This document shows, in pieces, positions 11,192-26,192 of a stretch of 64,000 nt of DNA (positions are counted from its first letter, which is position 1; each line of letters begins with the position of its first letter). Origin of the DNA: Candidatus Zymogenaceae bacterium (GTDB lineage: Bacteria > Desulfobacterota > Zymogenia > Zymogenales > Zymogenaceae); NCBI GenBank assembly GCA_016931225.1, contig JAFGFE010000026.1:75499-139498 (forward strand), in the 5' to 3' direction. The notes below the pieces were generated by a model, which did no database searches, had not been told where the DNA came from, and saw only the letters and a program-made list of their open reading frames with translations. Made by a program: the position numbers and the translations under genes.

Positions 11192-12736
11192 CTACCCGGT
11201 CTTAAAATCCCGATGCCGGAACATCTCCCGCAGGAGGTCCTTTGACACCTCCCCGGTCTCGCTTCTCGGCAGCTCCTCCATCACCTCCAGGATGCGGGGG
11301 ATCTTATAATCCGCGATTTTTTGCTCCAAGAATTCCCGCAACCGTGAGAGCGTGGGCGGCTCCGGGCCGTCGGCGACGATAACCGCCATGACCGTCTCCC
11401 CCCATTCCGAATGCGGCATGCCGATGACGGCGACGTCTTTAATCCCGGGATGTCCGCCGACCGCGATCTCCACCTCCCGGGCGTAGACATTCTCGCCGCC
11501 GGTGATGATGAGGTCCTTCTTTCGGCCGACCAGGGTAACGCATCCGTCCGAATCCATCACGCCCACATCTCCGGTAAACAGCCATCCGTCCCTGATGATC
11601 TCCTTCGTTGCATCGGGATCCTTGTAGTACCCGGTCATGATCGTCTCGCCCCTGAGGGCCAGCTCCCCGGCAACGCCCGGCCTCGTGATGGTTTCGCCCC
11701 CCTCGTCTGTGAGCTTCCACTCCATGTTCACCGCGTACATGCCGCCGGAGCCGGCCTTCTGGACCTGTCTGTCCGGCGGCAGGGCAACGCCCCCGGGCCC
11801 CCCCTCTATCAGGCCGCACAGGCATACGAAATCGGTCCGTCCGAACTTCTTGAGCATCTCCCGGACCTTTTCCGCGCTCATGGGGGCCGCCCCGTACGCG
11901 AACCGGCGGATAGACGACAGGTCGTATGCTTCGAACTCCTCTTCGTTCATCAGCATCGAATACATCACCGGCGGCCCGAATACCTGTGTGATCCTCTCTT
12001 TCTCCATTAGAAGAAGGACGTCCTTGTACGGCGGCATGTTCCGCCTGATCACATGGGTCGCCCCAACGTAGGTGCCGGGATTGAGATACAGGTTCAACTG
12101 CGCCCCGTGAAAGAGCGGGGCCATGTGGAGGATGATATCGTCGGTGCAGAGCCCCAGCACGCTTAAGGCGCTCGCCGCGAGAACCATCTGGCTGTGATGG
12201 GTGAACACGGCCCCCCGGGGCGTGCCGTCGAAAGCGGCGGTATAGAGTATCTCCGACAGGTCGTCCTCATCCACCGAAACGGCCGGCTCCTCCGGCGATC
12301 CCTCCCTGAGCATGCTCTGGAGCGGATCGTAGCGGGCGAAGCGTCCCGGCCCCGAGGAATAATACTGCGTGATGCTCACCAGGTTCGGCTCCAGTTCCCG
12401 AACGATCGGCTCAAAGCCGTCGTCGAACACCAAAGCCACGGCGTCGCTGTGCGTGAAGATGTATTCGGCCTCCGGTTTCGCCAGCCGATAGTTCACCGGC
12501 ACCGCAACCCCGCCCGCCTTGACCACGGCGTAAAACGCGATGACAAAGAGGTCCGAATTCTCCATCCAGAGCAGTGCCGTGTCCCCCTTTGTGAATCCCG
12601 CATCGATCAGGGTATTCGCGAACCGGTTTACCAGGTCGTTGACCTGATACCACGTATACCGCTCCTGCTCGAAGATCAACGCCTCCTTGTCGGGCAGCAT
12701 CCCGGCGTTGCGCGTCACCAGTGCTCCGAGGTTCAT
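11192..12736 (-). CDS. AMP-forming acyl-CoA synthetase (ANL superfamily)
   Basis: A 514-residue adenylate-forming enzyme expected to make acyl-AMP and then an acyl-CoA thioester. It has the hinge motif Y-K-D-P-D-A-T-K-E-I-I-R-D-G-W-L-F-T-G-D-V-G, then L-V-G-R-K-K-D-L-I-I-T-G-G-E-N-V, and a C-terminal A10-like region with catalytic Lys in I-A-D-Y-K-I-P-R. The P-loop motif is unusual: Y-T-A-A-F-D-G-T-P-R-G-A-V-F-T-H replaces the common YTSGTTGxPKG form. AGGAGGGG precedes the ATG at 12736. The substrate is not evident. A decayed second copy of its 3' end lies at 10193-10380. Confidence 0.88.
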   Translation of the reverse strand: MNLGALVTRNAGMLPDKEALIFEQERYTWYQVNDLVNRFANTLIDAGFTKGDTALLWMENSDLFVIAFYAVVKAGGVAVPVNYRLAKPEAEYIFTHSDAVALVFDDGFEPIVRELEPNLVSITQYYSSGPGRFARYDPLQSMLREGSPEEPAVSVDEDDLSEILYTAAFDGTPRGAVFTHHSQMVLAASALSVLGLCTDDIILHMAPLFHGAQLNLYLNPGTYVGATHVIRRNMPPYKDVLLLMEKERITQVFGPPVMYSMLMNEEEFEAYDLSSIRRFAYGAAPMSAEKVREMLKKFGRTDFVCLCGLIEGGPGGVALPPDRQVQKAGSGGMYAVNMEWKLTDEGGETITRPGVAGELALRGETIMTGYYKDPDATKEIIRDGWLFTGDVGVMDSDGCVTLVGRKKDLIITGGENVYAREVEIAVGGHPGIKDVAVIGMPHSEWGETVMAVIVADGPEPPTLSRLREFLEQKIADYKIPRILEVMEELPRSETGEVSKDLLREMFRHRDFKTG

Positions 12737-19888: not shown

Positions 19889-21094
19889 CTACATGTGGGT
19901 CAGGGCTATCTTGACCGCCCGGTGTTCCCCCTTTTTGAAAAACACGTCGATGGCCTTTCGGTATTCCTCCATCGGAAAGGTATGGGTGAGAAAACCGGTG
20001 AAATCCAGCGCCCCCTCCCGATAGAGCGTCAGCGCCACGTCAAAGGAGCTCATCTGTCCTCCGCGAAATGTCTCCATCCCGTGACAGTCTATCCCTTTAA
20101 CTTCCACCTCCTGATACCATACGGGGGAATAATCGAGACGCTTCGGGGAAAAATTGATCCCCACCAGGACGACGGTGCCCTCACCCCGAACCCACCGGAG
20201 GGCGTCGGCCAGGGTGCCGTCGTTGCCGACGGTATCGTAGATGACGTCGAAACCGCCGATGATCATCCTGTTGCCGAAGGGCGCATCGAAAAGCTTACCC
20301 CCGGTGATATCCGCCACCTCCCGGTACACATCCCTTCCTGTAATAACGCCGGCGGCTCCCAGTTTTTCCGCCAGCTCCGTCTGGTGGGGATACCGGGACA
20401 CGATATAGACCTCGACGTCGGGGACCAGGGCCTTCAGCACCGCAAGCATGTTCAGCCCGATGGAGCCGGCGCCGACGACGAGCACCCGCTCCCCCGGCTC
20501 AGGGAGCCGCTTGAGGGCGGCCCGCACCGAGCAGGCGGTTGGCTCGATAAGAATGGCGTCTTCATCCGGTATGTCGTCCTCTATCTTCACAAGCTGGGAG
20601 GTATGGGCCACCATGAAGTCGGAAAAGCCTCCCCCCTGGTTCAGGGGCAACCCCTCGGCCCCCGGCTTCTCGCACAACAGGTAGTTCCCCTTTTCGCACT
20701 GGGGACACATCGGGTCCGTCTCCTTCTGGTGGCAGCTCGGCCAGTCGATCTTCAGGATCACCCGGTCTCCGGTCTTGAAATTCCGGACGCCTTCTCCGAC
20801 CTCCACGATCTCCCCCACCATCTCGTGGCCGATAAATTTCCGGGGTATCGATGGAATCGCCGCCGGGGCGACCTTCGGGGCTATCTCCAGGAACATGAAG
20901 TGCACGTCGGACCCGCACAGACCGCACATCCTGTTTTTTATCCGCACCCAGTTCGGGCCCGGAAGCTCCGGGTCCGGGACCTCCCCGTAGGTGACCGGAG
21001 AGATAACGGAAAGCGGAGCGTTCTTCCAGAAGGCGCTGAGCGCCTTTATCATAACAATCTTCTTTATATCCGGCTCAAAGTACAACCCTTTCAT
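19889..21094 (-). CDS. Zinc-dependent medium-chain dehydrogenase
   Basis: A 401-residue MDR-family alcohol/sorbitol/threonine-type dehydrogenase. Catalytic zinc ligands fit C-G-L-C-G-S-D-V-H and G-H-E-M-V-G-E; the structural zinc lobe is D-P-M-C-P-Q-C-E-K-G-N-Y-L-L-C, with an extra upstream Cys. The Rossmann motif V-V-G-A-G-S-I-G-L-N binds NAD(P). The substrate is not clear. The frame is open to 21298, but the extension overlaps the divergent PHP gene's 5' end; ATG 21094 has AAAGGA upstream and starts at a normal family N terminus. It is divergent from the PHP gene over a 170-base region. Confidence 0.85.
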   Translation of the reverse strand: MKGLYFEPDIKKIVMIKALSAFWKNAPLSVISPVTYGEVPDPELPGPNWVRIKNRMCGLCGSDVHFMFLEIAPKVAPAAIPSIPRKFIGHEMVGEIVEVGEGVRNFKTGDRVILKIDWPSCHQKETDPMCPQCEKGNYLLCEKPGAEGLPLNQGGGFSDFMVAHTSQLVKIEDDIPDEDAILIEPTACSVRAALKRLPEPGERVLVVGAGSIGLNMLAVLKALVPDVEVYIVSRYPHQTELAEKLGAAGVITGRDVYREVADITGGKLFDAPFGNRMIIGGFDVIYDTVGNDGTLADALRWVRGEGTVVLVGINFSPKRLDYSPVWYQEVEVKGIDCHGMETFRGGQMSSFDVALTLYREGALDFTGFLTHTFPMEEYRKAIDVFFKKGEHRAVKIALTHM

Positions 21095-21263
21095 GTACCG
21101 TATCCTTTCTTCCGGTAAAATCTGTCTTTTGACCGTTATAACACGCGCCGGGCATCGAGAAAAGTCATTTTTCTCCCGGTTTCGGGTACGCAATTTGGCT
21201 TTGATTTTACGCCCCGGCGTGATAGTATTGACTCTTTGGCCTGTATAATTCGATGTGTTTGTC

Positions 21264-21866
21264 ATGTCATATCTCAAGGGGAACCTCCACATCCACACCC
21301 TCTATTCCGACGGCCATTTCGAGCCTCGTGATATGGCCGGGTTCTATCGCGACCTGGGGTTTGATTTCATCGCCGTCACCGACCACGAGTACATGGTGAA
21401 GCAGGCCTATTTCGACCTGTTTCCCCTGGAAGTCCCCGGCATTATGATCTTCGAGGGGATAGAGCTGGAGCCGGTCTACATCTATTACCATCACACGCTC
21501 CAGATCAAGGGCGAGAATGAGGTGCTCCACGTCCTGTGCCACCCCGACTCCTACCGCATCAGCATCCGGGAGGTGAACAAGCGCATCGCCCTCTTCAATG
21601 AAAACGGACCGGGGAAGATCGACGCCGTCGAGGTGACCAACAAGGGATTTTACACGAAGTTTTACGACACCGACGAGATACCGCTCCCCAAAATCGCCTC
21701 CGACGACGCCCACGACGAACACTCCTGCGGCCTAACCTGGATCGAGGTGAACGCTATTCGGGAAAAGGACGCCATCCTCCGGGCCGTCAAAGCCGGTGAT
21801 TTCGAGCTCGGTTTTATCTCGGGAAAGAGAAGACGGAAAAAGGTATCGGTCGTCTCCGGCGGCTGA
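21264..21866 (+). CDS. PHP-domain metal-dependent phosphoesterase
   Basis: A 200-residue stand-alone PHP protein. All four metal motifs are present: L-H-I-H-T-L-Y-S-D-G, V-T-D-H-E-Y-M, V-L-C-H-P-D and A-S-D-D-A-H. Such proteins hydrolyse small phosphate esters or nucleotides; the substrate here is unknown. A TATAAT box at 21244-21249 implies transcription from about 21256, which excludes the GTG at 21255 and leaves only a very short leader before ATG 21264. A terminator follows at 21987-22013. Confidence 0.85.
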   Translation: MSYLKGNLHIHTLYSDGHFEPRDMAGFYRDLGFDFIAVTDHEYMVKQAYFDLFPLEVPGIMIFEGIELEPVYIYYHHTLQIKGENEVLHVLCHPDSYRISIREVNKRIALFNENGPGKIDAVEVTNKGFYTKFYDTDEIPLPKIASDDAHDEHSCGLTWIEVNAIREKDAILRAVKAGDFELGFISGKRRRKKVSVVSGG

Positions 21867-22016: not shown

Positions 22017-22607
22017 TCACCCGCAGTCGTAATTTCTGCCGGTGTTCTCCTGACCGCCCTCAAAGGGAGACGCGCCCTTCACAAAAAGCATCAGCACATC
22101 CCCGGACGAGAGTGTCGGCATATCGGTGAAAGAGACGGTTCTGTGGGCGTAGTCGATGATCACCGGCCGGTCGAGGCACGTTACGCTTCCATCCCGGTCG
22201 ACAACGGCGGCGTCGCACCGCACACCACCGTCCACGGGCCGCGCCGTGGTGAAATTCAAAGACGCCCCCTTCTCGACCGTCACCGTGAGCGATGCGACAT
22301 CCGTACCGATTGCCATATCCGGCTCGTAGCAGCGGACATCGCTTCCCTCTGTGATACTCAGGGCGCAGCAGTCCGCGAAGAGGCGGGGGTTTTCTTGAGG
22401 ATCGAGGCCCGCTATAAAGCCGATATCCGTCAGATCTCGGGAGACGTCCTTCGGGAGTCCGTCGAGGTTTACCACCCGGAGGGACGGCGGCCCCTCCTGG
22501 GAGAAGCCGAGGGCCGCAGGGAAGAACGCCATAAGAGTCACCGCCACAGTCCGGGCGAGCCGACCGGCACGGCGCATCATGTTTTCAGCTTTTGTGGAAT
22601 CGATCAT
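22017..22607 (-). CDS. Exported protein of unknown function
   Basis: A 196-residue protein with a signal peptide: basic R-R-A-G-R-L-A-R, hydrophobic T-V-A-V-T-L-M-A-F-F-P-A-A-L-G and probable cleavage near F-S-Q. The mature part has six cysteines (C-C-A-L-S, V-R-C-Y, G-V-R-C-D, V-T-C-L and near the C terminus Y-D-C-G), suggesting disulfides outside the cytoplasm. No known domain was recognised. ATG 22607 is chosen because GGAG precedes it and the signal peptide then sits at the N terminus; the open frame extends further to 22700. It stands alone on the minus strand. Confidence 0.6.
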   Translation of the reverse strand: MIDSTKAENMMRRAGRLARTVAVTLMAFFPAALGFSQEGPPSLRVVNLDGLPKDVSRDLTDIGFIAGLDPQENPRLFADCCALSITEGSDVRCYEPDMAIGTDVASLTVTVEKGASLNFTTARPVDGGVRCDAAVVDRDGSVTCLDRPVIIDYAHRTVSFTDMPTLSSGDVLMLFVKGASPFEGGQENTGRNYDCG

Positions 22608-22853
22608 CGTCTCGCTCCGGAATGAAAAATCCGCCTGCCGTTCGTCCCCCGCTCTCCGCATCCCCCCAACCGTTATACCCGTTCTTCTCCCATAAGACAT
22701 CTTCTTTTGGGCGATGCGGGGACTGTGCCCTCTATATCACATGACGAGAGGCGAAATCAAGAGGCAAAACCGAAGGGTGGTGCACAAAAAAGACGGGCGG
22801 TGCTTCTTGTCGCGCCGCCCGTCTTGTTTCTATTCTCTTCCTTTTTTGTGCCG

Positions 22854-23850: not shown

Positions 23851-25020
23851 CTATTTGTCCGGCCTGTTTTTGCCCAGAAGCAACAGCACCGTCCAGAAGG
23901 TGCCCCCGAATCCTGATGCCAGGGCGAGATCCACTTCCTTCGGTACCTGGTGATCCCCGGCGTTCCCCCGTATCTGCAGCGCCGCCTCGGCGACCCTGAC
24001 GATGGCGGTGGCCCCGATGGAATTTGAGGAGACCACCCCCCCCGATGGATTGAGCGGGAACTTCCCGTCGATGGCGAAATCTCCGTTGAGCACCATATCG
24101 ATCTGCTCACCGTTTTCTAACATCAAGAACTTCCCGATCCAGTCCAACGCCCACCAGCTCTGGGGGTCGTACATCTCGAAGACCCCTATCTGTTTGATGG
24201 GATTGATGATGCCGTTTCTCGCATACAGCACCCGGGCCGCCTCGCCGTGGGTATCCAGGTCTCCGATGTTGACCAGGTCAAACGTCTCCTGCCGGTGGAC
24301 GGTGACATGATCGTGCACCCAGACCGGCTTCTGGGGGAGTTTTTTGGCCTGTTCTTCCGATGAAAAGAGCACGGCGCAGGCGCCGTTGGACTCGGGACAC
24401 ATGTGAAGGAGCCTGAGCGGCCACGCCAGCACCCTCGATTCCAGGACGTCCTGTCTGGTGATGTCGATCCTGAGATGGGCCTTGAAGTTCTTCCGGGCGT
24501 TCTGGGCCATGAGCACGCGAAGCTCGGCCGCCGCCTGGTTGGCGGGCTCGCCGAATTTGTTCATCATTATCACGCCCTGGGTGCCCGTGATGGCGCCGGT
24601 CTGTATCTCCCGCTCCCAGAGGGGGTCGGCCATGTTCGTGATGCCGGTGGTGGTCATTCCCTCTTCCTGTTTTTCCCATCCGATGGCCAGCACGTTTTCA
24701 TACATGCCCGACGCCACCAGATGGTCCGCCGAGCAGGCAATGGTCGCCCCGGTGGTGCCGCCGGTGGTAATGCGATAGCCCGATTTTCCATAGGCGCCGT
24801 CCCCCAGGACGTGCCACAGGTCCGGCTGGTGTATCCCCTCGAAGAGCTCCATGTTTCCGTGTACGATACAATCGATATCCTTCAAATCTATCCGGGAATC
24901 CGCCAGGACCTCCTCGACGGCCTCGCTGACCAGTTCCATCATGTTAACATCTTCCCGGTGTCCCCGGTGCCTGGTCTGGCCGATCCCGGTGATTGCAACG
25001 TTTCTCATCCGTTTGGTCAT
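23851..25020 (-). CDS. Thiolase-fold (SCP2/Ltp2-like) protein lacking the nucleophilic cysteine
   Basis: A 389-residue protein of the lipid-transfer-type thiolase group. By eye alignment, the loop that holds the thiolase nucleophile (V-E-A-A-C-S-S-G) reads I-T-T-G-G-T-T-G, so Gly replaces Cys; a Cys found five residues after the G-T-T-G loop is not in the equivalent position. The C-terminal G-H-P loop reads V-S-S-N-S-I-G-A-T. Ordinary thiolysis therefore looks unlikely; acyl-CoA aldolases such as Ltp2 share the fold without the Cys. Its start overlaps the stop of the upstream thiolase-fold gene (TGATG). The true reaction is unknown. Confidence 0.85.
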   Translation of the reverse strand: MTKRMRNVAITGIGQTRHRGHREDVNMMELVSEAVEEVLADSRIDLKDIDCIVHGNMELFEGIHQPDLWHVLGDGAYGKSGYRITTGGTTGATIACSADHLVASGMYENVLAIGWEKQEEGMTTTGITNMADPLWEREIQTGAITGTQGVIMMNKFGEPANQAAAELRVLMAQNARKNFKAHLRIDITRQDVLESRVLAWPLRLLHMCPESNGACAVLFSSEEQAKKLPQKPVWVHDHVTVHRQETFDLVNIGDLDTHGEAARVLYARNGIINPIKQIGVFEMYDPQSWWALDWIGKFLMLENGEQIDMVLNGDFAIDGKFPLNPSGGVVSSNSIGATAIVRVAEAALQIRGNAGDHQVPKEVDLALASGFGGTFWTVLLLLGKNRPDK

Positions 25021-26192
25021 CAGTTGCCTCCCTCATCGTTTTCCAGTACCAGGACGGCGTGAAATTGTCCCGCCGGCCCCACAGTGCCGTGGGCCAGGGC
25101 GCGCGTCGCCCCCTTTACCTGGTGTTTTTTGGCCTCTCCCCGAAGCTGCAGGAAACATTCCGTCGTTCTTACGATGCCCGAAAGCAACAGTGGGTTTCCA
25201 CAAAGCTGTCCGCCAGAAGGATTGACCGGCAGCTTCCCCCCCATATCGGTCTGTTTGGATTCAAACAGCTCCATCCCCTTGCCCGGTTCGGCAAAACCCA
25301 GACCCTCGTACCACATCGGCTCCTGGTAGGTGGCCTGCACGCTGATTTCGGCCAGATCCAGCTGTTCCATCGGGTCTGTGATGCCCGCATGCCGATATGC
25401 GCCCCATGCCGCCTTGGGAAGGCTCATGGACTCCCAGAGGTTTCGGTCGCCCATAAAATAGGAGTCGTAGCAGTTGCCGTACCCGGTGATCCAGACCGGC
25501 TTGTCGGTGATCGCCCTCGCCTTCTTTTCTTCGGCCAGGATCATGCACACCGCCCCGTCGCTGACCGGATACAGGTCCAGCTCCTTGATGGGCGTGGTTA
25601 TCACCTTCGATCCTAAAACGTCCTTCGCGGTGATCTTTTTCGTGCGCTGGGCGAACGGATTATTTTTTCCGTTTTTCGCCGCCCGGACAGATACCTCCGC
25701 CAACTGCTGTTCGGTGACCCCCCACTTGTGCATGTACGATTCCGCCTGAAGACCCAGGGCCTGTGTATAATCCATTCCAAGAAACCGGGTATAAAACGGC
25801 TCGAACGCGTGAAAGGTGACGATATTTCGTGAATCGACCTGGGATTCCTTCGCGTGAGCCAGCACGATGACGATGTCATAGTGCCCCGAGGCGATACCCG
25901 CGGCGGCGTACATGACGGCCATGGCGCCGTCCGTTGCCACCTTTTCCTCGCCGCCCCAGCGTCCCGTTCCAACCAGGTCCCCCATGGGGCCGTCGGAGAT
26001 GGTGCGCTGATCGAAGAAATCGTCTGAGCTTGTGATGCCGAAATCGATTCCCCTGCCGGGGACAAAATCGAGGCCCGTCTCCTCCAGACATTCCTTCACC
26101 AGCGGGTAGCACATCTCCTGAAAGCGCTCGTCGCTCTTGTTTTCTTCGTATTTCGTCTGACGAGCACTGACGATGGCTACTTTGCGCAGCAT
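25020..26192 (-). CDS. Thiolase-fold protein, second paralog, also without the catalytic cysteine
   Basis: A 390-residue thiolase-fold protein, first gene of the operon. The nucleophile loop reads E-K-V-A-T-D-G-A-M-A-V-M-Y, placing Ala where Cys is expected, and the C-terminal loop is G-Q-L-C-G-N-P-L-L-L-S-G, with Asn in place of His. The N terminus M-L-R-K-V-A-I-V-S-A-R-Q-T-K-Y is typical of the group. ATG 26192 has GGAGGT eight bases upstream; the open frame continues to 26243. With its downstream paralog and two DUF35 proteins it probably makes a hetero-oligomer acting on acyl-CoA intermediates. Confidence 0.85.
   Translation of the reverse strand: MLRKVAIVSARQTKYEENKSDERFQEMCYPLVKECLEETGLDFVPGRGIDFGITSSDDFFDQRTISDGPMGDLVGTGRWGGEEKVATDGAMAVMYAAAGIASGHYDIVIVLAHAKESQVDSRNIVTFHAFEPFYTRFLGMDYTQALGLQAESYMHKWGVTEQQLAEVSVRAAKNGKNNPFAQRTKKITAKDVLGSKVITTPIKELDLYPVSDGAVCMILAEEKKARAITDKPVWITGYGNCYDSYFMGDRNLWESMSLPKAAWGAYRHAGITDPMEQLDLAEISVQATYQEPMWYEGLGFAEPGKGMELFESKQTDMGGKLPVNPSGGQLCGNPLLLSGIVRTTECFLQLRGEAKKHQVKGATRALAHGTVGPAGQFHAVLVLENDEGGN

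Follow-up and report, generated by a model that had tools for sequence, protein, structure and literature searches.

Can two thiolase-fold proteins that both lack the nucleophilic cysteine still cleave an acyl-CoA, and by which chemistry? This question is raised by two neighbouring genes in the window, by which we mean the whole 64,000-nucleotide stretch of Candidatus Zymogenaceae DNA that was analysed. Thiolase-annotated genes serve to infer beta-oxidation in anaerobes, and the large family described here carries this annotation while being incapable of thiolysis by the known mechanism. Judging from sequence comparisons, we lean towards reading the operon as a heteromeric retro-aldol acyl-CoA lyase of the Ltp3/Ltp4 kind with one active subunit. 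If it is such a lyase, many predicted anaerobic fatty-acid pathways would need rewriting, and a plausible cleavage step for anaerobic growth on beta-branched chains would be available.

The operon lies on the minus strand and comprises four genes, namely the thiolase-fold subunits A (25020-26192, 390 aa) and B (23851-25020, 389 aa), each defined by its open reading frame, Pfam and AlphaFold2, followed by two DUF35 proteins of 160 aa each (first, P0004, 23352-23834; second, P0003, 22854-23336). The A stop and the B start overlap by one base (TGATG), and the two reading frames are real, adjacent and translationally coupled. Both are under strong purifying selection, with a dN/dS of about 0.04-0.1, which is a rough value since dS is saturated (>1). 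The DUF35 genes were recognised by Pfam and their starts were revised using ribosome-binding sites and the length of relatives. That the thiolase-like pair has two DUF35 partners, as the first-pass annotation had claimed, is borne out by the ChsH2-type zinc-ribbon and OB domains found in them. The first contains a rubredoxin-like zinc ribbon (C-x2-C-x10-C-x2-C) with zf-ChsH2 above the cut-off and an OB part below it (19.2, cut-off 27.1); in the second both domains exceed the cut-off and the fourth zinc ligand is Asp (C-x2-C-x10-C-x2-D). Asp at this position also occurs in 14 of 94 relatives and recalls the Cys3His1 variant of Shy.

Just 3' of the operon lies a possibly secreted ORF of 227 aa that has no Pfam match (22017-22700, minus strand), and a PHP-domain metallohydrolase (CehA/McbA-like, 203 aa, 21255-21866, plus strand) is convergent with the operon. 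The family of this metallohydrolase is represented beside A-B in 39 of 97 loci, where its gene often immediately precedes A. Neither a hydratase nor an acyl-CoA dehydrogenase nor an aldehyde-oxidising enzyme adjoins the window operon, and no steroid genes were seen near it. Reading a substrate from the window neighbours failed as well: apart from a Zn-dependent dehydrogenase (19889-21298) and an AMP-binding ligase (11192-12736), they are mostly housekeeping or regulatory genes (NDK, response regulator, gyrase, H+-pyrophosphatase).

Alignment, Pfam and Foldseek agree that A and B are two adjacent thiolase-fold proteins without the nucleophilic Cys, as first proposed from the sequence by eye. 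Pfam detects thiolase domains in both, AlphaFold2 predicts confident thiolase folds (pLDDT 88.9 for B and 93.9 for A), and Foldseek searches with these predicted structures return SCP2-thiolase, archaeal AACT, BbsB, Ltp2 and Sal at TM scores of about 0.8-0.9. When both proteins are placed in a multiple alignment with Cys-bearing references, the residue in the nucleophile column is Gly88 for B (codon 24757-24759, minus strand, counted from 25020) and Gly89 for A. A pairwise alignment places Ala86 of A at this position, so that the original assignment of Gly and Ala holds, with Ala86 as one valid placement; under either placement no Cys of A or B falls on the nucleophile position. In both models a helix starts at the place of the thiolase Cys, namely at residue 87 of B and residue 89 of A. 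Residues 36-215 of A contain no Cys at all, and the nearest Cys of B, the non-conserved Cys97, lies nine residues into the helix. Likewise, the predicted exchange of His for Asn in the GHP loops is found in both proteins, at Asn333. A and B thus share the fold of canonical and SCP2 thiolases and lack both the Cys and the GHP His of these enzymes.

The absence of the Cys goes beyond chance because none of 77 A and none of 74 B homologues has a Cys in the nucleophile column, and Asn occupies the GHP His position in all 74 B and in 54 of the 77 A proteins. The loss of these residues is therefore not peculiar to this window. In three homologues (L090, L132, L135) a seeming Cys motif is located elsewhere in the chain. 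If A-B were a true thiolase with its nucleophile displaced to another Cys, the candidates would be Cys208 and Cys215 of B, which are invariant and nearly invariant, respectively. However, both reside in a C-P-x-S-D-G-A loop outside the nucleophile column, the first of the two positions is occupied by Cys in Ltp2 as well and by Ser in an ordinary thiolase, Cys97 is not conserved, and the GHP His is lost as well, which makes this explanation extremely improbable.

The tandem A-B genes with DUF35 partners span many phyla and at least 97 loci. At least 584 places in the genome collection encode a B relative, of which 78 loci were kept; related loci are not independent counts. Locus titles include Deltaproteobacteria/Desulfobacterales, Spirochaetes, Chloroflexi, Bacillota, Hydrogenedentota, Schekmanbacteria, Calditrichaeota, Blastocatellia and archaea. 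Isolates with the module include Desulfosarcina alkanivorans (L092) and Desulfatibacillum alkenivorans (L141). Among the matches listed, the nearest relative belongs to a Candidatus Zymogenaceae bacterium (L070). The genome of the window itself has three A-B loci: the window copy, C35:42944-45240 and C34:2493-4834. The module is real, conserved and under-described, and the window copy is an ordinary representative of the family.

The two subunits differ in what they have kept. Gly88, Tyr284, Pro286, Asn333 and the GG loop are invariant in all 74 B proteins, and further polar residues, among them Asn178, Cys208, His242 and Glu282, are invariant too. Tyr284 of B (codon 24169-24171, minus strand, placed by alignment) aligns with Tyr294 of TcLtp2 (YDHF) and is equivalent by motif to Tyr302 of CtSal (YDCY), so that a Tyr does fill the aldolase position in B, and Ser284 is found there in A. 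Among the 77 A proteins only eight retain the Tyr; the same eight retain the His, and the window A has neither. This asymmetry points to B as the probable catalytic subunit of a retro-aldol acyl-CoA lyase and to A as a probably non-catalytic, degenerate partner. The earlier idea of a doubled, heteromeric enzyme can be kept in part: A immediately precedes B in 71 of the 72 loci where this is visible and the two form separate clades (see below), which suggests a heteromer, but one of non-equivalent subunits, as A is devoid of the Tyr.

The degeneration of A would also suit a dead scaffold or lipid carrier that joins a ligase, a hydratase or BKACE via the DUF35 proteins. Such a role would agree with DUF35 fusions to ligase-SCP2, MaoC and BKACE and with the naming of the PRK07937 family as a lipid-transfer protein. 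A pure scaffold would not be expected, however, to keep Tyr284, Gly88, the GG loop, Asn333 and His242 in 74 of 74 divergent B proteins, and the window operon comes without a fused enzyme, yet purifying selection on A and B is strong. We consider a scaffold without activity unlikely.

To place A and B among known systems, a tree of 85 proteins was calculated with IQ-TREE (LG+C20 PMSF). All A proteins form one clade and all B proteins another, with 100/99 support each. Ltp2 (6OK1), to which the pair had initially been likened, groups with the Cys-bearing references outside both clades; on this position and the missing second Tyr, membership in the Ltp2 group was rejected. Instead, proteins from two actinobacterial loci (L018 and L021) fall inside the A and B clades. 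Their A proteins exceed the cut-off of PRK07937 (549.9 and 593.4, cut-off 419) and their B proteins that of PRK08313 (713.2 and 734.3, cut-off 514), while the window proteins stay below (A 167, B 300.5). The actinobacterial pairs adjoin one DUF35-domain protein of 309-339 aa, and we take them to be putative Ltp3/Ltp4 pairs from their layout and their lengths. By NCBIfam models, gene order and length, the best reading is that an Ltp3/Ltp4-like pair represents the closest kin of A-B. The likeness to Ltp3/Ltp4 (Rv3523/Rv3522, with Rv3521) consists in tandem A-B genes adjoining a DUF35 protein; the actinobacterial pairs of this layout share the two clades, the missing Cys and the positions of the Tyr and Asn of B. 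In contrast, the actinobacterial A proteins are shorter (about 355 aa), their B proteins have Thr at the position of His242 and YVPF instead of YDP(S/Q), and their DUF35 parts form one protein instead of two. The hosts differ as well, sterol-degrading actinobacteria on the one hand and an uncultured lineage related to anaerobes on the other. A gene list of M. tuberculosis gives the order Rv3521-ltp4-ltp3 (PMC6429209), and a further paper calls Ltp3 and Ltp4 aldol-lyases that are essential for C24-branched sterol side chains (PMC4761994, citing Wilbrink 2012). A report on the activity of purified Ltp3/Ltp4 was not found in the open-licence PMC literature.

Among systems with solved structures, Ltp2-ChsH2 (DUF35; steroid C3 side-chain aldolase) resembles the module in its thiolase fold, the Gly in place of Cys, a Tyr base in a YD motif and the DUF35 partner, but Ltp2 is a single thiolase-fold protein. 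Sal-Shy (DUF35; bile-acid C5 side-chain aldolase, 9MYR) has Gly at the Cys position, Tyr302 as base and a Gly oxyanion hole, and its DUF35-MaoC fusion is also found in relatives of the window module; again, Sal is one thiolase-fold chain. BbsAB (benzoylsuccinyl-CoA thiolase, 7PXP) shares the fold, the DUF35 partner, a setting in anaerobic degradation and weak NCBIfam matches. However, BbsB is described as a thiolase, and its model reaches only 78-95 bits here (cut-off 750). Of the solved structures, ST0096 of Sulfolobus tokodaii (4YZO) matches A best, both in sequence (1.3e-37) and in fold. As read from the alignment (DNTSGSGG), it also seems to be without Cys at the aligned position; in contrast to A-B it is a single protein.

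In Ltp2 and Sal, the Tyr of the YD motif acts as base on the beta-hydroxyl, the Gly that replaces the thiolase Cys contacts the hydroxyl through its backbone, and in Sal a Gly amide of a second loop is part of the oxyanion hole (PMC12329534). By analogy, A-B with one DUF35 protein per subunit would act on a 3-hydroxyacyl-CoA and split its alpha-beta C-C bond in a retro-aldol reaction and not by thiolysis. Tyr284 of B would take the proton from the beta-hydroxyl, the backbone of Gly88 would hold this hydroxyl at the site taken by Cys in thiolases, and the GG loop would stabilise the acyl-CoA enolate; the products would be a shortened acyl-CoA and either an aldehyde or a ketone. The degenerate A would complete the complex, and the DUF35 proteins would cap it and, in relatives, tether neighbouring enzymes. 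The acyl-CoA aldolase suggested in the first-pass annotation survives as an aldolase-type reaction, which we infer from the retention in B of the Tyr base, the Gly and the GG loop known from Ltp2 and Sal. The complex, the roles of its subunits and the substrate are inferred as well, whereas the sequences, their conserved residues, the predicted fold, the phylogeny, the gene fusions and the operon structure are direct results of the analysis. Counting against a retro-aldol reaction are the loss of both known general acids and the lack of a hydratase, an acyl-CoA dehydrogenase or an aldehyde-oxidising enzyme next to the window operon. The YD motif of B reads Tyr284-Asp-Pro-Gln and shares Tyr and Asp with YDHF of Ltp2, while the His and Phe differ; Cys304 of Sal (YDCY) and the His of Ltp2 are replaced by Pro286. 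No residue of B aligns as a second catalytic Tyr corresponding to Tyr344 of Ltp2, which is replaced by Asn333 or a residue nearby in an Asn333-Ser-Ile region. Asn333 or His242 of B, or a residue of A, may supply the proton instead. The invariant Tyr, Pro and Asn of B and the degenerate A make the retro-aldol reading directly testable.

A Cys-independent enzyme that condenses, transfers acyl groups or decarboxylates (of Claisen type or similar to TbSLP, which slowly decarboxylates malonyl-CoA) would place A-B in the synthetic direction. DUF35-associated thiolase folds are indeed found in the acyltransferase PhlABC and in the archaeal AACT-HMG-CoA synthase complex, both of which appear near in the fold searches. 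Furthermore, BKACE and CoA-transferase neighbours act on beta-keto acids, and retro-aldol reactions are reversible. Yet Claisen chemistry in this superfamily requires the acyl-enzyme Cys, which is absent in 151 of 151 proteins, the neighbours are catabolic (ligases, acyl-CoA dehydrogenases, hydratase), and neither a carrier protein nor a ketosynthase partner was seen around A-B. We therefore regard the synthetic direction as improbable, and the non-cleaving Claisen-type complex that had been offered as an alternative has become less likely.

For the retro-aldol lyase, gene fusions are the strongest functional clue. DUF35 fusions to SCP2 and to hot-dog dehydratases have been known since 2010 (PMC2954200). 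Here, relatives of the first DUF35 protein are fused to SCP2 in 47 loci, and those of the second are joined to a MaoC hydratase (13 loci) or to BKACE (PF05853; 11 loci). In Desulfosarcina alkanivorans and other Desulfobacteraceae (L092, L103), a single protein of about 780-1000 aa combines acyl-CoA ligase, SCP2 and DUF35; the ligase-SCP2-DUF35 protein of D. alkanivorans (L092 9297-11981, 894 aa) adjoins A and B. The fusions to ligase-SCP2 and BKACE suggest physically coupled steps. The 13 loci with a MaoC fusion contain acyl-CoA dehydrogenases and ligases, whereas within up to about 8 kb on each side neither a HAD-type 3-hydroxyacyl-CoA dehydrogenase nor a Cys thiolase was found; an SDR in one of these loci counts against the retro-aldol reading. 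As the loci span at most about 8 kb per side and many are metagenome assemblies, this absence is only suggestive; it is the look expected of a pathway in which hydration and retro-aldol cleavage replace oxidation and thiolysis. The likeliest substrates would be acyl chains whose beta-carbon is fully substituted, so that oxidation to a 3-ketoacyl-CoA is not possible. More tentatively, the A-B-DUF35 core could serve as the lyase in an anaerobic "aldol-type beta-oxidation" assembly, in which DUF35 tethers ligase-SCP2, MaoC or BKACE to the Tyr-dependent, Cys-free site of B, with A inactive and a general acid unlike that of Ltp2 and Sal. Such an assembly, which we hold to be possible and no better than that, would replace the dehydrogenase and thiolase steps for beta-blocked chains in sulfate reducers, syntrophs and other anaerobic lineages. 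An aldehyde oxidoreductase was discarded as a regular partner, being present in only 5 of 97 loci.

BKACE is encoded in 29 of 97 loci, which goes beyond a simple aldolase and counts against the retro-aldol reading in its plain form. BKACE converts a beta-keto acid and acetyl-CoA to acetoacetate and a shortened acyl-CoA. A retro-aldol lyase acting on a substrate with a second carboxyl group (3-hydroxy-3-alkylglutaryl-CoA type) would yield acetyl-CoA and a free beta-keto acid, both of them BKACE substrates. The frequency of BKACE and its 11 fusions to the second DUF35 protein fit such a reaction, as does the presence of 3-oxoacid-type CoA-transferase genes in the BKACE-fused clusters. In the window's own genome a BKACE gene (C34; L064 5396-6451) immediately precedes a paralogous DUF35-A-B-DUF35 module. 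In contrast, no carboxylase was seen in the clusters that were inspected, and BKACE does not adjoin the window module and is not needed by the MaoC-fused clusters. A dicarboxylic substrate is thus quite doubtful, and the coupling of BKACE to 3-hydroxy-3-alkylglutaryl-CoA cleavage is speculation. The open-licence PMC literature yielded nothing direct on the host lineage, on BKACE with DUF35 or on anaerobic retro-aldol thiolase-like enzymes.

Besides the three A-B loci, the genome carries a lone A gene on contig C9 (L164 3112-4248) that keeps the Tyr and the His; no B gene was found on this contig, and the genes downstream resemble lactate-utilisation genes as recognised by eye only. Finally, a lipocalin similar to CrtC/Diels-Alderase is encoded near the module in 9 of 97 loci (e.g. 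L131 7897-8952).
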